Below, piece by piece: positions 25,068 to 61,650 of a DNA stretch of 64,000 nt. Every line of letters starts with the position of its first letter. Position 1 is the first letter of the stretch. The DNA lies in NCBI GenBank assembly GCA_944332455.1, contig CALVJY010000004.1, forward strand, positions 62,001 through 126,000, given 5' to 3'. A program made the position numbers and the translations under genes. A model generated the notes under the pieces. That model saw only the letters and a list, made by a program, of their open reading frames with translations, was not told where the DNA came from and did no database searches. The stretch comes from an uncultured Clostridia bacterium (GTDB lineage: Bacteria > Bacillota > Clostridia > Christensenellales > HGM11417).

Positions 25068-25077
25068 GCGCTTCGCT

Positions 25078-25392
25078 TCCGGCCAGACGCAAAATTCCGC
25101 TGTGCGGAATTTTGGCCGGACTTGAGGGGACAACCGTTGTTCGCGAACGGGATGTAAAACCTGAAAACTCTTTTCGGAGGCCGAAATTTACTTCGGTCTC
25201 CGTTTTTTTGTTCCGCTCTGCAACGTTTTTCCCCTCTCAAAAGGCGTTGCCTTTTGATTCACCTCTTTCCACCCGTGGCTTTGCTCACCGCAAAGCCACG
25301 ATTGAGTCCGATGGCGGCGCATGTCCGCCATCGTCACGACGAGATTGGAAACCTGGTGCGGGGACAGACTTTGAGGGGAAAAGACAATTGAA
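25078..25392. repeat. Composite hairpin repeat (275-bp family), copy after the HGSNAT-like gene
   Basis: Outer arms CCGGCCAGACG/GGCCGG enclose CAAAATTCCGC/GCGGAATTTTG. Then come GGACTTGAGGGGACAACCG, an exact GGAGGCCGAAAT/ATTTACTTCGGTCTCC-like hairpin, CTCTCAAAAGG, CGTGGCTTTGC/GCAAAGCCACG with a TCACC loop, and GATGGCGG/CCGCCATC. The same parts in the same order recur at 53100, 53430, 59191, 59467 and 61680, partly in the opposite orientation. Confidence 0.88.
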
Positions 25393-27694: not shown

Positions 27695-27774
27695 TCGATA
27701 TGTTTCCCTGGCGGGAAACTCGATATGTTCCCTTCGGGAACTCGATATTTGCCCGCTTTGCGGGCAATCGATAT
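27695..27774. repeat. Minimal TCGATAT hairpin array: four linkers, three different perfect stems
   Basis: TCGATAT occurs at 27695, 27720, 27742 and 27768. Between them lie TTTCCC/GGGAAA, GTTCCC/GGGAAC and TGCCCGC/GCGGGCA. Loops are TGGC, TTC and TTT. The linkers are identical while every stem is different and perfectly paired. Confidence 0.92.
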
Positions 27775-27899
27775 GAATGGCCTTGTTTATTCTCTTTTCC
27801 CTCTGTAATTTGTCCCGCCATATTTTGGAATAAAGATCAAGACAGAGGCCCCAAACCCGGCCATTCGTATTGGATAAAACAGATCAAAACCGTATGATT

Positions 27900-28425
27900 T
27901 TTAAAACCTATCGCAGGAACAAGCGGTTAGTTTTTCATTCGCCCCGAGTGAGCGTACAGGCTGTGCCTTCAGGCACCCCTGCGTTGGCGCGACGAGATTG
28001 AAAGCCCGGTGCGAGGACAGACTTTACGAAAAAAATAATCGGAACGGGCTTATATCTTTTCCTTTATGCTGTCCGTCCACAACGTGCCACGTTGTGGCAC
28101 ATATCGAGCAAAGTGAGCGAAGCGGAACTTTGCATATCGAATGGCCGTCAGGCCATATATCGAGCGAGGCAAAGCCGAGCATATCGACTTAAACTCATCG
28201 CAGGATAAATCAATCAATATTCCCACTCAGTCAGAGTGGGCGTGCTGCCTGGTGCCGCCGGCACCGGAGCCTTGCATATCGAATGGCCGTCAGGCCATAT
28301 ATCGAGCGAGGCTTAGCCTCGCATATCGACATAAATTTCTCGCAGGGCAAATAAATCAAATTTCCCACTTGCCCGGAGTGGGCGTATTGCCCGGTGCCGC
28401 CGGCACCCGCCCGCATAAGCGGTTT
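27900..28425. repeat. Large composite island of ATATCGA arrays
   Basis: Two arrays (28084-28186 and 28274-28330) are each followed by (T/C)TCGCAGG, an AAATCAAT tract and a CCCACT/AGTGGG hairpin, then GTGCC/GGCAC. Stems include GTGCCAC/GTGGCAC, GCAAAGT/ACTTTGC, ATGGCC/GGCCAT (twice), GGC/GCC inside GCGA...CGAGC and GCGAGGC/GCCTCGC. The start repeats GACGAGATTGAAAGCCCGG as at 25351, 53368 and 61700. No gene is seen in 27606-28473. Confidence 0.9.
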
Positions 28426-50889: not shown

Positions 50890-51300
50890 TATGCTCTGAA
50901 AATAAGAGCAGGTCGAATTTTTAGAAAACGGATATACCCCTTTTCGGGTGTACTGAAAAAAACGGGTGTACTGAAAAAAAACGCAAGGACACGCTCCGAA
51001 AACAGGGGCGGGACGGATTTTAGAAAACGGATATACCCCTTTTCGGGTGTATTGGAAAAAACGCAAGGACACGCTCTGAAAACAGGAGCGGGACGGATTT
51101 TAGAAAACGGATATACCCCTTTTCGGGTGTATTAGAAAAAACGCAAGGACGCGCTCCGAAAACAGGAGCGGGACGAATTTTTAGAAAACGGATATACCCC
51201 TTTTCGGGTGTATTGGAAAAAACGCAAGGACACGCTCTGAAAATAAGGGCGGGACGAATTTTAGAAAACGGATATACTTTTTGCGAGTGTATTGAAAAAA
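50890..51300. repeat. 80-bp tandem repeat, five units, between hisS and aspS
   Basis: GGATATACCCCTTTTCGGGT follows AGAAAACG at 50930, 51029, 51110, 51190 and, with a changed hairpin (GGATATACTTTTTGCGAGT), at 51270. Spacings are 99, 80, 80 and 80 bp; the first is longer through a duplicated GGGTGTACTGAAAAAAA. Units share AAACGCAAGGACACGCTC(T/C)GAAAA and GGGACG(A/G)ATTTT. The last unit provides the aspS start region. Confidence 0.88.
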
Positions 51301-51314
51301 ACGGAGAAACGATC

Positions 51315-58739: not shown

Positions 58740-59160
58740 TAAGGTGCCGGCGGGGAACCTGAGGCTCCGCGCAATACGCCCAGGCGGGTGCCTGAGGCAC
58801 CATGCAAGTACGCCCACTCTTAGAAAACGGGAATATTGATTATTTGTTCCTGGGCGGCGTCGCCGCCGGGAAGGCGCGCCCACTTTGACTAAGCAGGAAT
58901 ATTGATTATTTGTTCCTGCGATGCGTTTATGTCGATATGTGCCGCGAAGCGGCACTCGATATATGGCCTGACGGCCATTCGACCAAAGTTCCGCTGCACT
59001 CACTTTGCTCGATATGTGCCGTTTCACGGCACGTTGTGGACAGACCCTATAAAAAATCGGAGACCGAAGTGCATTTCGATCTCCGAATATTATGCGGTTT
59101 ATTTTAAAACCTAAACACTGTCGCAGGAGAAGAGGCAAGCTCCCTCTCGCAAACGGAGTG
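58740..59160. repeat. TCGATAT array and REP-like modules before the composite tandem
   Basis: GGTGCCTGAGGCACC and GTACGCCCACTC are followed by GGCGGCGTCGCCGCC, TTCCTGCGATGCG, then TCGATAT-linked stems GTGCCGC-GAA-GCGGCAC, ATGGCC-TGAC-GGCCAT, CAAAGT/ACTTTG and GTGCCG-TTTCA-CGGCAC (58932-59032), then CGGAGACCGAA/TTCG(A)TCTCCG and TCGCAGGAGAAGAGG. Confidence 0.9.
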
Positions 59161-59190
59161 GGCTTTCCCGCCCGGCGGCGCTGCCGCCTT

Positions 59191-59797
59191 GTCCCCTCAA
59201 GCCCGGCCGATTTTCGCTTTCAGCGAAAATCGCGTTTGGCCGGAAATAAGAATCTGTTTTCGCAAAAGTCCGGACCTGCGCCGGACTTTTGCACAATCGC
59301 ATTTTTGCGGTGAGCAAAAATGCAGGAGGAAAAGGGTGAATCAAAAGGCAAAGCCTTTTGAGAGGGGAAAAACGTTGCAGAGCGGAACAAAAAATCGGAG
59401 ACCGAAGAAATTTCGGTCTCCGAAAAGAACTTTTCAGGTTTTACATCTTGTTCGCGAACAACGGTTGTCCCCTCAAGTCCGGCCAAAATTCCGCAAAGCG
59501 GAATTTTGCGTCTGGCCGGAAATAAGAATCTGTTTTCGCAAAACGGCGGACATGCGCCGCCGTTTTGCACAATCGTGGCTTTGCGGTGAGCAAAGCCACG
59601 GGTGGAAAGAGGTGAATCAAAAGGCAAAGCCTTTTGAGAGGGGAAAAACGTTGCAGAGCGAAACAAAAAACGGAGACCAAAGGAATTTCGGTCTCCGAAA
59701 AGAGTTTTCAGGTTTTACATCCCGTTCGCGAACAACGGTTGTCCCCTCAAGTCCGACCGATTTTTGCGAAGCAAAAATCGCGCTTGGTCGGAAAAGC
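59191..59797. repeat. Tandem of the roughly 275-bp composite hairpin repeat before dnaN
   Basis: GTCCCCTCAAG starts units at 59191, 59467 and 59741 (partial). Each unit has four variable stems in fixed places. Stem 1: GATTTTCGC/GCGAAAATC, CAAAATTCCGC/GCGGAATTTTG, GATTTTTGC/GCAAAAATC. Stem 2: AAAAGTCCGG/CCGGACTTTT and AAAACGGCGG/CCGCCGTTTT with loop AC(C/A)TGCG. Stem 3: GCATTTTTGC/GCAAAAATGC and CGTGGCTTTGC/GCAAAGCCACG with loop GGTGA. Stem 4: CGGAGACC/GGTCTCCG. Linkers such as GGAAATAAGAATCTGTTTTC are identical. Confidence 0.93.
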
Positions 59798-59804
59798 GAA
59801 GCGT

Positions 59805-60911
59805 TTAATTGACAATCCGCACCGGCAGGATCAGGAAGAGATATTCCTCGGTGGAGACCGGGCGGATGACGCAGGGCGAGACCGGGGTGTTGAGGTAGAT
59901 GCGGATGAACTCGTCGTTCACGGTGCGAAGGGCCTCGGTGAAGTAGCGGGCGTTGAAGGCGATCAGCATGTCCTTGCCCTTCAGCGAGACCGCCATGTTC
60001 TCCTTGACGTTGCCCATGTCCGAATTGGAGGTCAGGGTCATCACCTTTTCCCGGATGTCAAATTTGACCATGTTGTTCTTGGGGTTGTTGGACAGCACCG
60101 AGGCCCGCTCGATGCCGTCCTCCAGCTGCTGCTTGTTGACGGTGACGCAGGTCTCGAATTCCCCGGGAATGATCTGCTTATACTTGACGAAGTCCCCGTC
60201 CAACAGCCGGGAGATCAGGATGGTGTGGTCCAGATCCAGCATGATGTAGTTTTTCTGCACGGCGATGGTGGCCACCGATTTTTCGGTGTCCTGGATCATT
60301 TTGGCGATCTCCTGCATGCTCCGGGCGGGCACCACCAGGGAAAATTCCCCCTTGTTCTGCTCCAGCGCCTTTTTGACCAGAGACAGCCGGTAGCCGTCCA
60401 GCGCCACGGCGGTCAGCTCGTACTCACCCACCTCCAGCAGGATGCCCTTCAGCACCGGCCGGGTGTCGTCGGCGGCCACCGCAAAGCTGGTCTTGTTGAT
60501 CAGATCCTTCAGCTCGCTCTCCAGAATGGAGAAGGAATGCTCGGTGTCGATCTTGGTGATCCGGGGATATTCGTCGGCGTTGAAGCACTGCAGATATCCT
60601 TCAGAATCCATGTAGCGGATGCGCAGCTGCTGCTTGTCGTTCAGGTCGATCTCGATCTGCTCGTTGTTCAGCTTGCGCACAAAGTCGGCAAACAGCTTGC
60701 CCGGCACCACCGTGCTGCCCTCGACCTTGACGTCGGCCTTGATCTTGCGCTGAAGCGACAGCTCCAGATCGGTGGCCGTCAGCATGACGTAATCTTCTTT
60801 GGCCTCCAGATGGATGCCCTCCAGGATGGGATTGGTGCTCTTGCCGCTGACCGCTTTCAATACCCTTAAGACCGCGTCCGAAAGATCCAGTCCGTCACAT
60901 GCAAATTTCAT
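59805..60911 (-). CDS. dnaN: DNA polymerase III beta subunit (sliding clamp)
   Basis: The clamp tethers replicative polymerase to DNA. The 368-residue protein shows the three-domain clamp layout: MKFACDGLDLSDAVLRVLKAVSGKSTNPILEGIHLEA (domain 1), SFAVAADDTRPVLKGILLEV (domain 2, near residue 140), and the third domain from about 255 with FNARYFTEALRTV. The ending EEYLFLILPVRI matches the usual LMPMR-type tail. The ATG with a TTTCTCC-complement (GGAGAAACC) is accepted; an in-frame upstream extension across the oriC-like region is not. dnaA, normally directly upstream, is absent here; the DnaA-box cluster occupies its place. Confidence 0.97.
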   Translation of the reverse strand: MKFACDGLDLSDAVLRVLKAVSGKSTNPILEGIHLEAKEDYVMLTATDLELSLQRKIKADVKVEGSTVVPGKLFADFVRKLNNEQIEIDLNDKQQLRIRYMDSEGYLQCFNADEYPRITKIDTEHSFSILESELKDLINKTSFAVAADDTRPVLKGILLEVGEYELTAVALDGYRLSLVKKALEQNKGEFSLVVPARSMQEIAKMIQDTEKSVATIAVQKNYIMLDLDHTILISRLLDGDFVKYKQIIPGEFETCVTVNKQQLEDGIERASVLSNNPKNNMVKFDIREKVMTLTSNSDMGNVKENMAVSLKGKDMLIAFNARYFTEALRTVNDEFIRIYLNTPVSPCVIRPVSTEEYLFLILPVRIVN

Positions 60912-60960: not shown

Positions 60961-61351
60961 GATAAGATTAGGTTTTTCTTTTTTAATTTGTCGTAGTCGT
61001 ATCCGTAGAGGGTGTTCAAATGTGGACAAGCCCCAAAGTCGGCCTTTTTTGGCCCGAGGGGGCTTCAAAACCCCGGAATTCGGGTCTGCGAACCCAAAAA
61101 ATGAGGGTGAAGTTTTGTGGATAACTCGGCGGAAAACCGGGGAAGAGAAGTGGAATCCGGTGTGTAAAACCCCTTTCAGCCCCCTTCAGAGGGGAGATGA
61201 GGGTGGAAAAGAGGGAAGTTATCCACTTTTTTGTACACTTTTCCACCAAAAGCAGAGGTGGGGATGTCCACATCTTCTTTTCCTTTTGCCAGGCCGTCTG
61301 AAACCCTTTTTGAACGGTTTTTTACCGCCTCTGTACCCAACTTTATCCACC
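60961..61351. other. oriC-like region: six DnaA boxes and an AT-rich stretch
   Basis: One perfect box (TTATCCACA, minus strand, 61116-61124) and near matches TTGTCCACA (61021-61029, minus), TTATCCACT (61219), TTTTCCACC (61239), ATGTCCACA (61264) and TTATCCACC (61343). An AT-rich tract (60963-60992, TTTTTCTTTTTTAATTTG) lies beside them and could be the unwinding element. dnaN, parB and parA flank it, the normal origin neighbourhood. Confidence 0.75.
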
Positions 61352-61650
61352 AGGGAGCCTGAGGCTCCGCGCAGTACGCCCACTCCAAATGGTCGGTTCC
61401 CCTCGAAGTCTGTACACGCAACAGGTTTCCATTCTCGTCGCGCTGATGACAGGCGGCGTCGCCGCCTGGAAGGCACGCCCAGGTGCCGGCGGCACCGGGC
61501 AATACGCCCACTCCGAGCAAGCGGGGAAATTGCCTGATGTTCCTGCAATGAAGTTTAGACGATATACCCGGCTCCACTGTGTTCGCCTTGCTCGATATGT
61601 GCCACAACGTGGCACGTTTTGGACAGACCACATAACTAAGAACTTTTTAT
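61352..61650. repeat. Hairpin module with GATATA/TCGATAT linkers, partial
   Basis: AGCCTGAGGCT, GTACGCCCACTC, AGGTTTCCATTCTCGTCG, GGCGGCGTCGCCGCC, GGTGCCGGCGGCACC and GTTCCTGCAATGAAG are followed by CTCGATAT and GTGCCAC-AAC-GTGGCAC. It is the counterpart of 25345-25740 in the opposite orientation. Confidence 0.85.

Follow-up and report, generated by a model that had tools for sequence, protein, structure and literature searches.

The window analysed here is a stretch of 64,000 nucleotides (bases 62001–126000 of contig C4) from a 2.35 Mb draft genome in 53 contigs, the source of which is the single species of its genus in the genome set compared. Next to dnaN, the interval 59189–59793 is occupied by an array of one A module followed by two complete units, the second of which ends ca. 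11 nt from the dnaN stop codon. The tandem claimed at 59191–59797 in the preliminary description is genuine; it had been placed directly before dnaN but actually lies 3′ of the stop codon, as dnaN is encoded on the minus strand. The locus is composed of the following features:

58740–59055, plus strand: 5′ part of the composite with TACGCCC-tagged GC hairpins, TCGATATG-separated hairpins and GTTGTGGACAGACC, assigned on the basis of the fixed module order genome-wide
59189–59245, plus strand: A module 1, ..TTGTCCCCTCAAGCCCGGCC, inner stem GATTTTCGC/GCGAAAATC, bulge GCGTTT, GGCCGGAAA
59261–59521, plus strand: unit 1, complete
59261–59292, plus strand: hp2 of unit 1, GCAAAAGTCCGG-ACCTGCG-CCGGACTTTTGC
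59299–59323, plus strand: hp3 of unit 1, GCATTTTTGC-GGTGA-GCAAAAATGC
59341–59361, plus strand: hp4 of unit 1, TCAAAAGGC-AAA-GCCTTTTGA, with the same letters in unit 2
59362–59474, plus strand: closing helix of unit 1, GAGGGGAAAAACGTTG (59362–59377) pairing with CAACGGTTGTCCCCTC (59459–59474)
59395–59423, plus strand: CGGAGACC hairpin inside the closing helix of unit 1
59475–59521, plus strand: A module 2, 3′ end of unit 1, inner stem CAAAATTCCGC/GCGGAATTTTG, bulge CGTCT, GGCCGG
59537–59793, plus strand: unit 2, complete, with hp2 at 59538–59568, hp3 at 59574–59600 and hp4 at 59617–59637
59638–59653 with 59733–59748, plus strand: closing helix of unit 2
about 59749–59793, plus strand: A module 3, 3′ end of unit 2, stem CGATTTTTGC/GCAAAAATCG
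59805–60911, minus strand: dnaN (sliding clamp), start near 60911, stop codon 59805–59807, a neighbouring gene only

The hp2–hp4 part expected in front of A module 1 is missing, and other repeats occupy its place. The position beside dnaN and the origin had been considered of interest, but nothing links the repeat to it: the same units adjoin rpoC, parB, pfk, two tRNA synthetases and ca. 30 other genes of this genome, among them those of MurB, GMP synthase and peptidyl-tRNA hydrolase. The segment after dnaN looks like one array of an interspersed repeat and not like a device of dnaN. Independently of the repeat, DnaA-box-like sites (TTATCCACA and TTATCCACC, at 61116 on the minus and 61343 on the plus strand) are found upstream of dnaN, between dnaN and parB, and the replication origin may therefore lie at ca. 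61100–61350.

The 284-nt unit is predicted to fold with −121.2 kcal/mol compared to −80.4 ± 5.0 for shuffled sequences (z −8.2). Concerted changes of both arms had been described for four hairpins of the array; they are found in hp1, hp2 and hp3, i.e. in three of the five hairpins, and not in hp4 and the CGGAGACC hairpin. The arm sets of hp1 differ in concert between GATTTTCGC/GCGAAAATC, AAAATTCCGC/GCGGAATTTT and GATTTTTGC/GCAAAAATC, those of hp2 between AAAGTCCGG/CCGGACTTT and AAACGGCGG/CCGCCGTTT, and those of hp3 between GCATTTTTGC/GCAAAAATGC and CGTGGCTTTGC/GCAAAGCCACG. In hp4 (TCAAAAGGC/GCCTTTTGA) units 1 and 2 do not differ, and the CGGAGACC hairpin differs in a single arm (CCGAAG to CCAAAG). 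As described, the units of the array retain the loops ACCTGCG/ACATGCG and GGTGA.

In general, a unit is a chain of hp2 (heptaloop RCRTGYR), hp3 (loop GGTGA), hp4, a long closed hairpin and the A hairpin, the latter termed module A and being a bulged hairpin at the 3′ end with the composition AAGTCCGRCC-stem-GCGTYTGGYCGGAA. The genome contains 93 blastn matches to the repeat, and a covariance model (R1) built from 26 full units of this genome detects 65 units above 100 bits, six of them in the window; this count covers the stretches of the genome with copies, and thus corresponds to at least 65 copies. As many draft contigs (C23, C27, C42, C46, C48 and C52) break off within these repeats, the true number of copies is higher, and assembly artefacts may account for some of the junctions. 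The further copies named in the preliminary description were recovered by the covariance model, one of them weakly:

25077–25337, minus strand: unit, 197.7 bits
40326–40541, minus strand: degenerate unit, 33.4 bits
53104–53364, minus strand: unit with the long closed hairpin, its A end separated by 4 nt from a class II tRNA synthetase stop codon
53513–53720, plus strand: unit, its A end 14 nt ahead of a co-directional gene's start codon
61712–61971, plus strand: unit, A end 24 nt from the parB stop codon

The order hp2-hp3-hp4-closed hairpin-A is repeated once to several times per array and is preceded on the 5′ side by a fixed series of TACGCCC-tagged GC hairpins, TCGATATG-separated hairpins, GTTGTGGACAGACCACATAA and a leader. 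The resulting composites of up to ca. 1 kb occupy intergenic gaps in this species, and nested copies and mosaics are present among the arrays. Most arrays have their 3′ (A) end next to a convergent gene, whose stop codon is often 2–12 nt away; in about nine it lies beside the start of a co-directional gene. Two further hairpin repeats were noticed. One consists of variable stems between constant TCGATATG elements (58915–59035, 27695–28407 and many other loci). Exact matches to TCGATATG number 72 in this genome and eight, with other stems, in a genome of another family (G350), where they do not adjoin an A module in the loci read; none was found in the 24 other module-A carriers searched. The other is REP-like, with GGTGCC..GGCACC or GGCGGC..GCCGCC followed by TACGCCC(ACTC) in both orientations; it is found at 58740–58880 and 61340–61520 and interrupts several units of other families.

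The conserved secondary structure suggested earlier is backed by covariation beyond the array. The 26 units share 68 consensus pairs with 97.2% of the cells paired, and 30 of these pairs, including some in the closing helix, show double changes. Double-change cells amount to 247 compared to 88.5 in shuffles, and the covariation score of 0.380 exceeds those of shuffles (0.149) and of slid partners (≤0.084). Significance was assessed by a home-made test modelled on R-scape but distinct from it, using a tree-based null, a G statistic and an average-product correction. In the within-genome alignment (A1), 29 column pairs are significant, of which 9 are base pairs and 20 are not. Of the latter, almost all of those inspected lie inside single hairpins. 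Whole hairpins thus vary as blocks, moving as haplotypes among the copies, and local copies consequently overstate the count of independent compensations. The arms of a hairpin vary jointly and intermediates are scarce, although single-pair compensations also exist. A four-gamete test between hairpins was positive for hp3 versus hp1 only (3 of 6 allele pairs), with few alleles available elsewhere. Among 54 distinct A modules compared across genomes (alignment A4, fitted to the model), base pairs take all ten of the highest ranks among the column pairs, and nine of the 11 doubly variable pairs, but no other pair, are significant. An unfitted MAFFT alignment of 16 representatives built without structure (A3) agrees, with 96.4% of the cells paired, 55 double-change cells compared to 16.7 and double changes in 10 of 16 pairs. 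Covariation thus persists when more copies are aligned and lies, according to the home-made test, above the phylogenetic null, as demanded of a conserved structured RNA.

Module A extends far beyond this genome. Of the 396 genomes and 142 genera of the order, 43 genomes and 19 genera are matched by a second model (R2) at E ≤ 1e-4; at E ≤ 1e-6 the model matches 26 of the 396 and not a single one of 397 genomes from elsewhere in the phylum. The carriers are sporadic, belong to six or more families and contain in many cases several to dozens of copies. The pattern AAGTYCGRCC-N10..40-GCGTYTGGYCG, which sets no condition on the inner stem, occurs in 11 of the 396 genomes of the order (reversed control: three matches in total), and in the listed matches from the order the inner arms are complementary. 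Of two patterns searched in viral contigs, one gave no match; the eight matches of the other have non-complementary inner arms and are taken as chance, as are four scattered matches of an hp4 pattern to named genome contigs of unrelated phyla. The repeat has no blastn match in phage and plasmid collections or in 40 relatives; in the relatives this is explained by differing stems, which makes a covariance model necessary for detection. Related species carry different arms, contrary to a fixed sequence with identical arms in all strains, and these arms nevertheless pair: it is the fold and not the sequence that is retained. Thus, G277 of another family contains the hp2 loop GCGTGTA followed by GGGGTGAA, a hairpin, GAGGGGAAAA..TTGTCCCC and AAGTCCGACC; G111 has kept CGGACATGCGCCG and GCGGTGAGC between wholly different stems, and a GCGGTGAGC-like hairpin is kept upstream of module A in G177 and G262. 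The latter two genomes share an orthologous locus with identical linkers, outer stem and bulge, where one has the inner stem CGAATGC/GCATTCG and the other TGGCGAC/GTCGCCA. G177 moreover contains each of these stem types at separate loci, which fits an exchange between copies.

Matching arms might in principle also arise without function by template switching or quasi-palindrome correction, to which the co-changing arms, the scarcity of intermediates and the replacement of whole stems would correspond. Such processes cannot, however, keep the GGTGA and RCRTGYR loops or the GCGTYT bulge on one side of the stem: a bulge of this kind would be lost on correction from arm to arm, yet it persists like the loops across families of the order. 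Together with the single-pair compensations, this renders a mutational artefact very improbable.

With respect to the active nucleic acid, the unique stem haplotypes contain 107 G-T compared to 32 A-C combinations, 34 of the former probably deriving from one invariant T-G pair. The excess derives mainly from the closed hairpin (51 versus 6), and near-neighbour hp3 types show no G-T bias (3 versus 7). In 24 of the 26 units the B-to-A (sense) strand gives a more stable fold than the opposite strand; the copies are related to each other. Altogether, the data lean towards RNA of the B-to-A strand over single-stranded DNA. A polarity of this kind would not be required by DNA hairpins of the REP/BIME type, for which single-stranded DNA or cruciforms would be read by a Y1 (RAYT/IS200) transposase and RNA would be irrelevant. 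REPs are likewise intergenic, clustered, situated near gene ends, present in high copy and assembled into nested mosaics (PMC3733652), and this genome does contain two Y1 transposase matches above the curated cut-off. Y1 does not track A-module presence among the carriers, however, as G078 (97% complete), G356 (95%), G104, G069 and G277 are devoid of a match. REPs are moreover defined as 20–40 bp palindromes with an unpaired GTAG or CGTC end tag (PMC3733652), whereas the present unit comprises ca. 200 nt with a 48-nt A hairpin, has the ends AAG..GGAA and contains CGTY only as an internal bulge; a CGTC-tagged REP, which the CGTC of the bulge might suggest, was ruled out on the same architectural grounds. 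A DNA hairpin served by Y1 is regarded as unlikely.

The family has no counterpart in Rfam: version 15 gave no match at gathering score in the whole window, and relaxed thresholds gave only sub-threshold matches at chance level between 58500 and 62100. In behaviour it is closest to BOX (PMC3049150) and REP/BIME (PMC3733652), but it is assigned to neither. BOX elements are modular and intergenic, contain variable numbers of internal units, form a stem-loop if transcribed, occur nested and are over-represented between convergent genes (PMC3049150). The boxA-boxB(n)-boxC elements of Streptococcus resemble the present repeat in all these respects, as judged from their published description, but belong to another host group and have another architecture. 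The present repeat, for which no terminal inverted repeats or target duplications were found, furthermore replaces stems wholesale while keeping the loops and has a homologous 3′ hairpin in 19 genera of the order. With REP/BIME it shares the interspersed extragenic palindromes of high copy number and alternative complementary stems (PMC3733652), but it differs by multi-hairpin units of 200 nt and composites of ca. 1 kb. Of the characteristics of MITEs, it shows the non-coding nature, the high copy number and the strong secondary structure. Some SINEs share a 3′ stem-loop with a partner LINE, and a common 3′ hairpin handle on lineage-specific 5′ parts is also the design of the present repeat; in contrast, no hallmark of retroposition was seen and no reverse transcriptase (RVT_1) was found in this genome. 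Since an Rfam intron match is likewise missing from the window, a derivative of a group II intron or retroelement is not indicated.

Two other RNA-based explanations have to be considered. According to the first, the repeat is a cis-acting 3′-UTR or 5′-UTR structure which stabilises, terminates or regulates the adjacent housekeeping gene. The A ends indeed adjoin stop codons of convergent genes or start codons, and module A recurs beside the same genes in different lineages: it adjoins phosphofructokinase (pfk) in two families and pyruvate kinase in two (L042 in G000, L076 and L060 in G069, L128 in G127), placements which should rarely be shared by chance, and follows groEL in one genome. However, the repeat is antisense to most neighbours and sense to others, the A hairpin is not followed by a U-tract, and the neighbours are ca. 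30 unrelated genes. Its presence is also sporadic, only two of ten species of one genus carrying the element after spo0A; in the non-carrier species it is absent from this locus, the flanks being too diverged for a clean junction. A cis-acting role appears rather unlikely. The second explanation considers the ca. 1-kb composite as the transcript of a multiplied ornate large non-coding RNA of the OLE, ROOL or GOLLD kind, in line with the multi-hairpin architecture, the module order fixed from the TACGCCC hairpins to the A end and the strand polarity leaning towards RNA. Dozens of copies, mosaic truncations and the missing Rfam match distinguish the repeat from these RNAs, and its 5′ TCGATATG part is present in only one other of 25 A-positive genomes, so that this interpretation is improbable.

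On the basis of the sporadic multi-copy carriers, the lineage-specific 5′ parts linked to a common 3′ hairpin, the nested mosaics and the intergenic placement, we propose, with a probability of about 0.5, that the repeat represents an order-restricted family of structured, non-autonomous mobile elements, BOX/REP-like in behaviour, with the 3′ hairpin as conserved handle. Units are five-hairpin chains read in one direction; conserved throughout the order are the loops of hp2 and hp3 and the A hairpin at the 3′ end, including its invariable outer stem and the GCGTYT bulge on one side. A putative trans-acting enzyme might recognise the loops and bulge in single-stranded form, the transcript being a more likely substrate than single-stranded DNA, and the stems would need only to pair. 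The copies would spread into intergenic gaps, grow into tandem arrays and presumably swap whole hairpins by recombination through the conserved linkers, an exchange that would yield discrete stem types with always-matching arms. The search for marks of transposition revealed neither an empty site nor a target duplication or terminal inverted repeats, the unit ends GGTGCC.. and ..GGCCGGAA being on reading no inverted copies of each other. No transposase is among the 25 commonest Pfam families of the 71 ORFs flanking A modules, and reverse transcriptase does not track A-module presence. Against mobility stands the distance of only 2–12 nt that separates A end and stop codon in many arrays, a closer fit than random insertion would be expected to give and perhaps the sign of a function at gene ends; module A is moreover found next to pfk in two families, a hint that its position is under selection. 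A more specific version of the proposed mobile repeat would be a SINE-like bacterial system, in which transcribed non-coding elements with a shared bulged 3′ hairpin and lineage-specific 5′ modules are mobilised by a putative enzyme that is neither Y1 nor a recognised reverse transcriptase, exchange whole hairpins and are under selection for fold, loops and bulge only. This version is considered unlikely.

Structured intergenic repeats are common in bacteria, most of them being short palindromes whose stem sequence is part of their identity. The family described here is absent from Rfam and is unusual in that the fold, the outer stem, the loops and the bulge are conserved throughout the order and the inner stems are replaced almost at will. 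With a 3′ hairpin common to at least 19 genera and an inner stem nearly freely replaced even at orthologous loci, selection on the fold alone becomes directly testable, and dozens of natural variants per genome are at hand for testing recognition by a mover or binding protein. The exchange of hairpins is also a warning, as it inflates within-genome covariation among repeats. Apart from the hairpin repeats, the window contains an 80-bp tandem of four copies at 50963–51303 (CGGGTGTATTGGAAAAAACGCAAGG...), which is apparently unrelated to this family.
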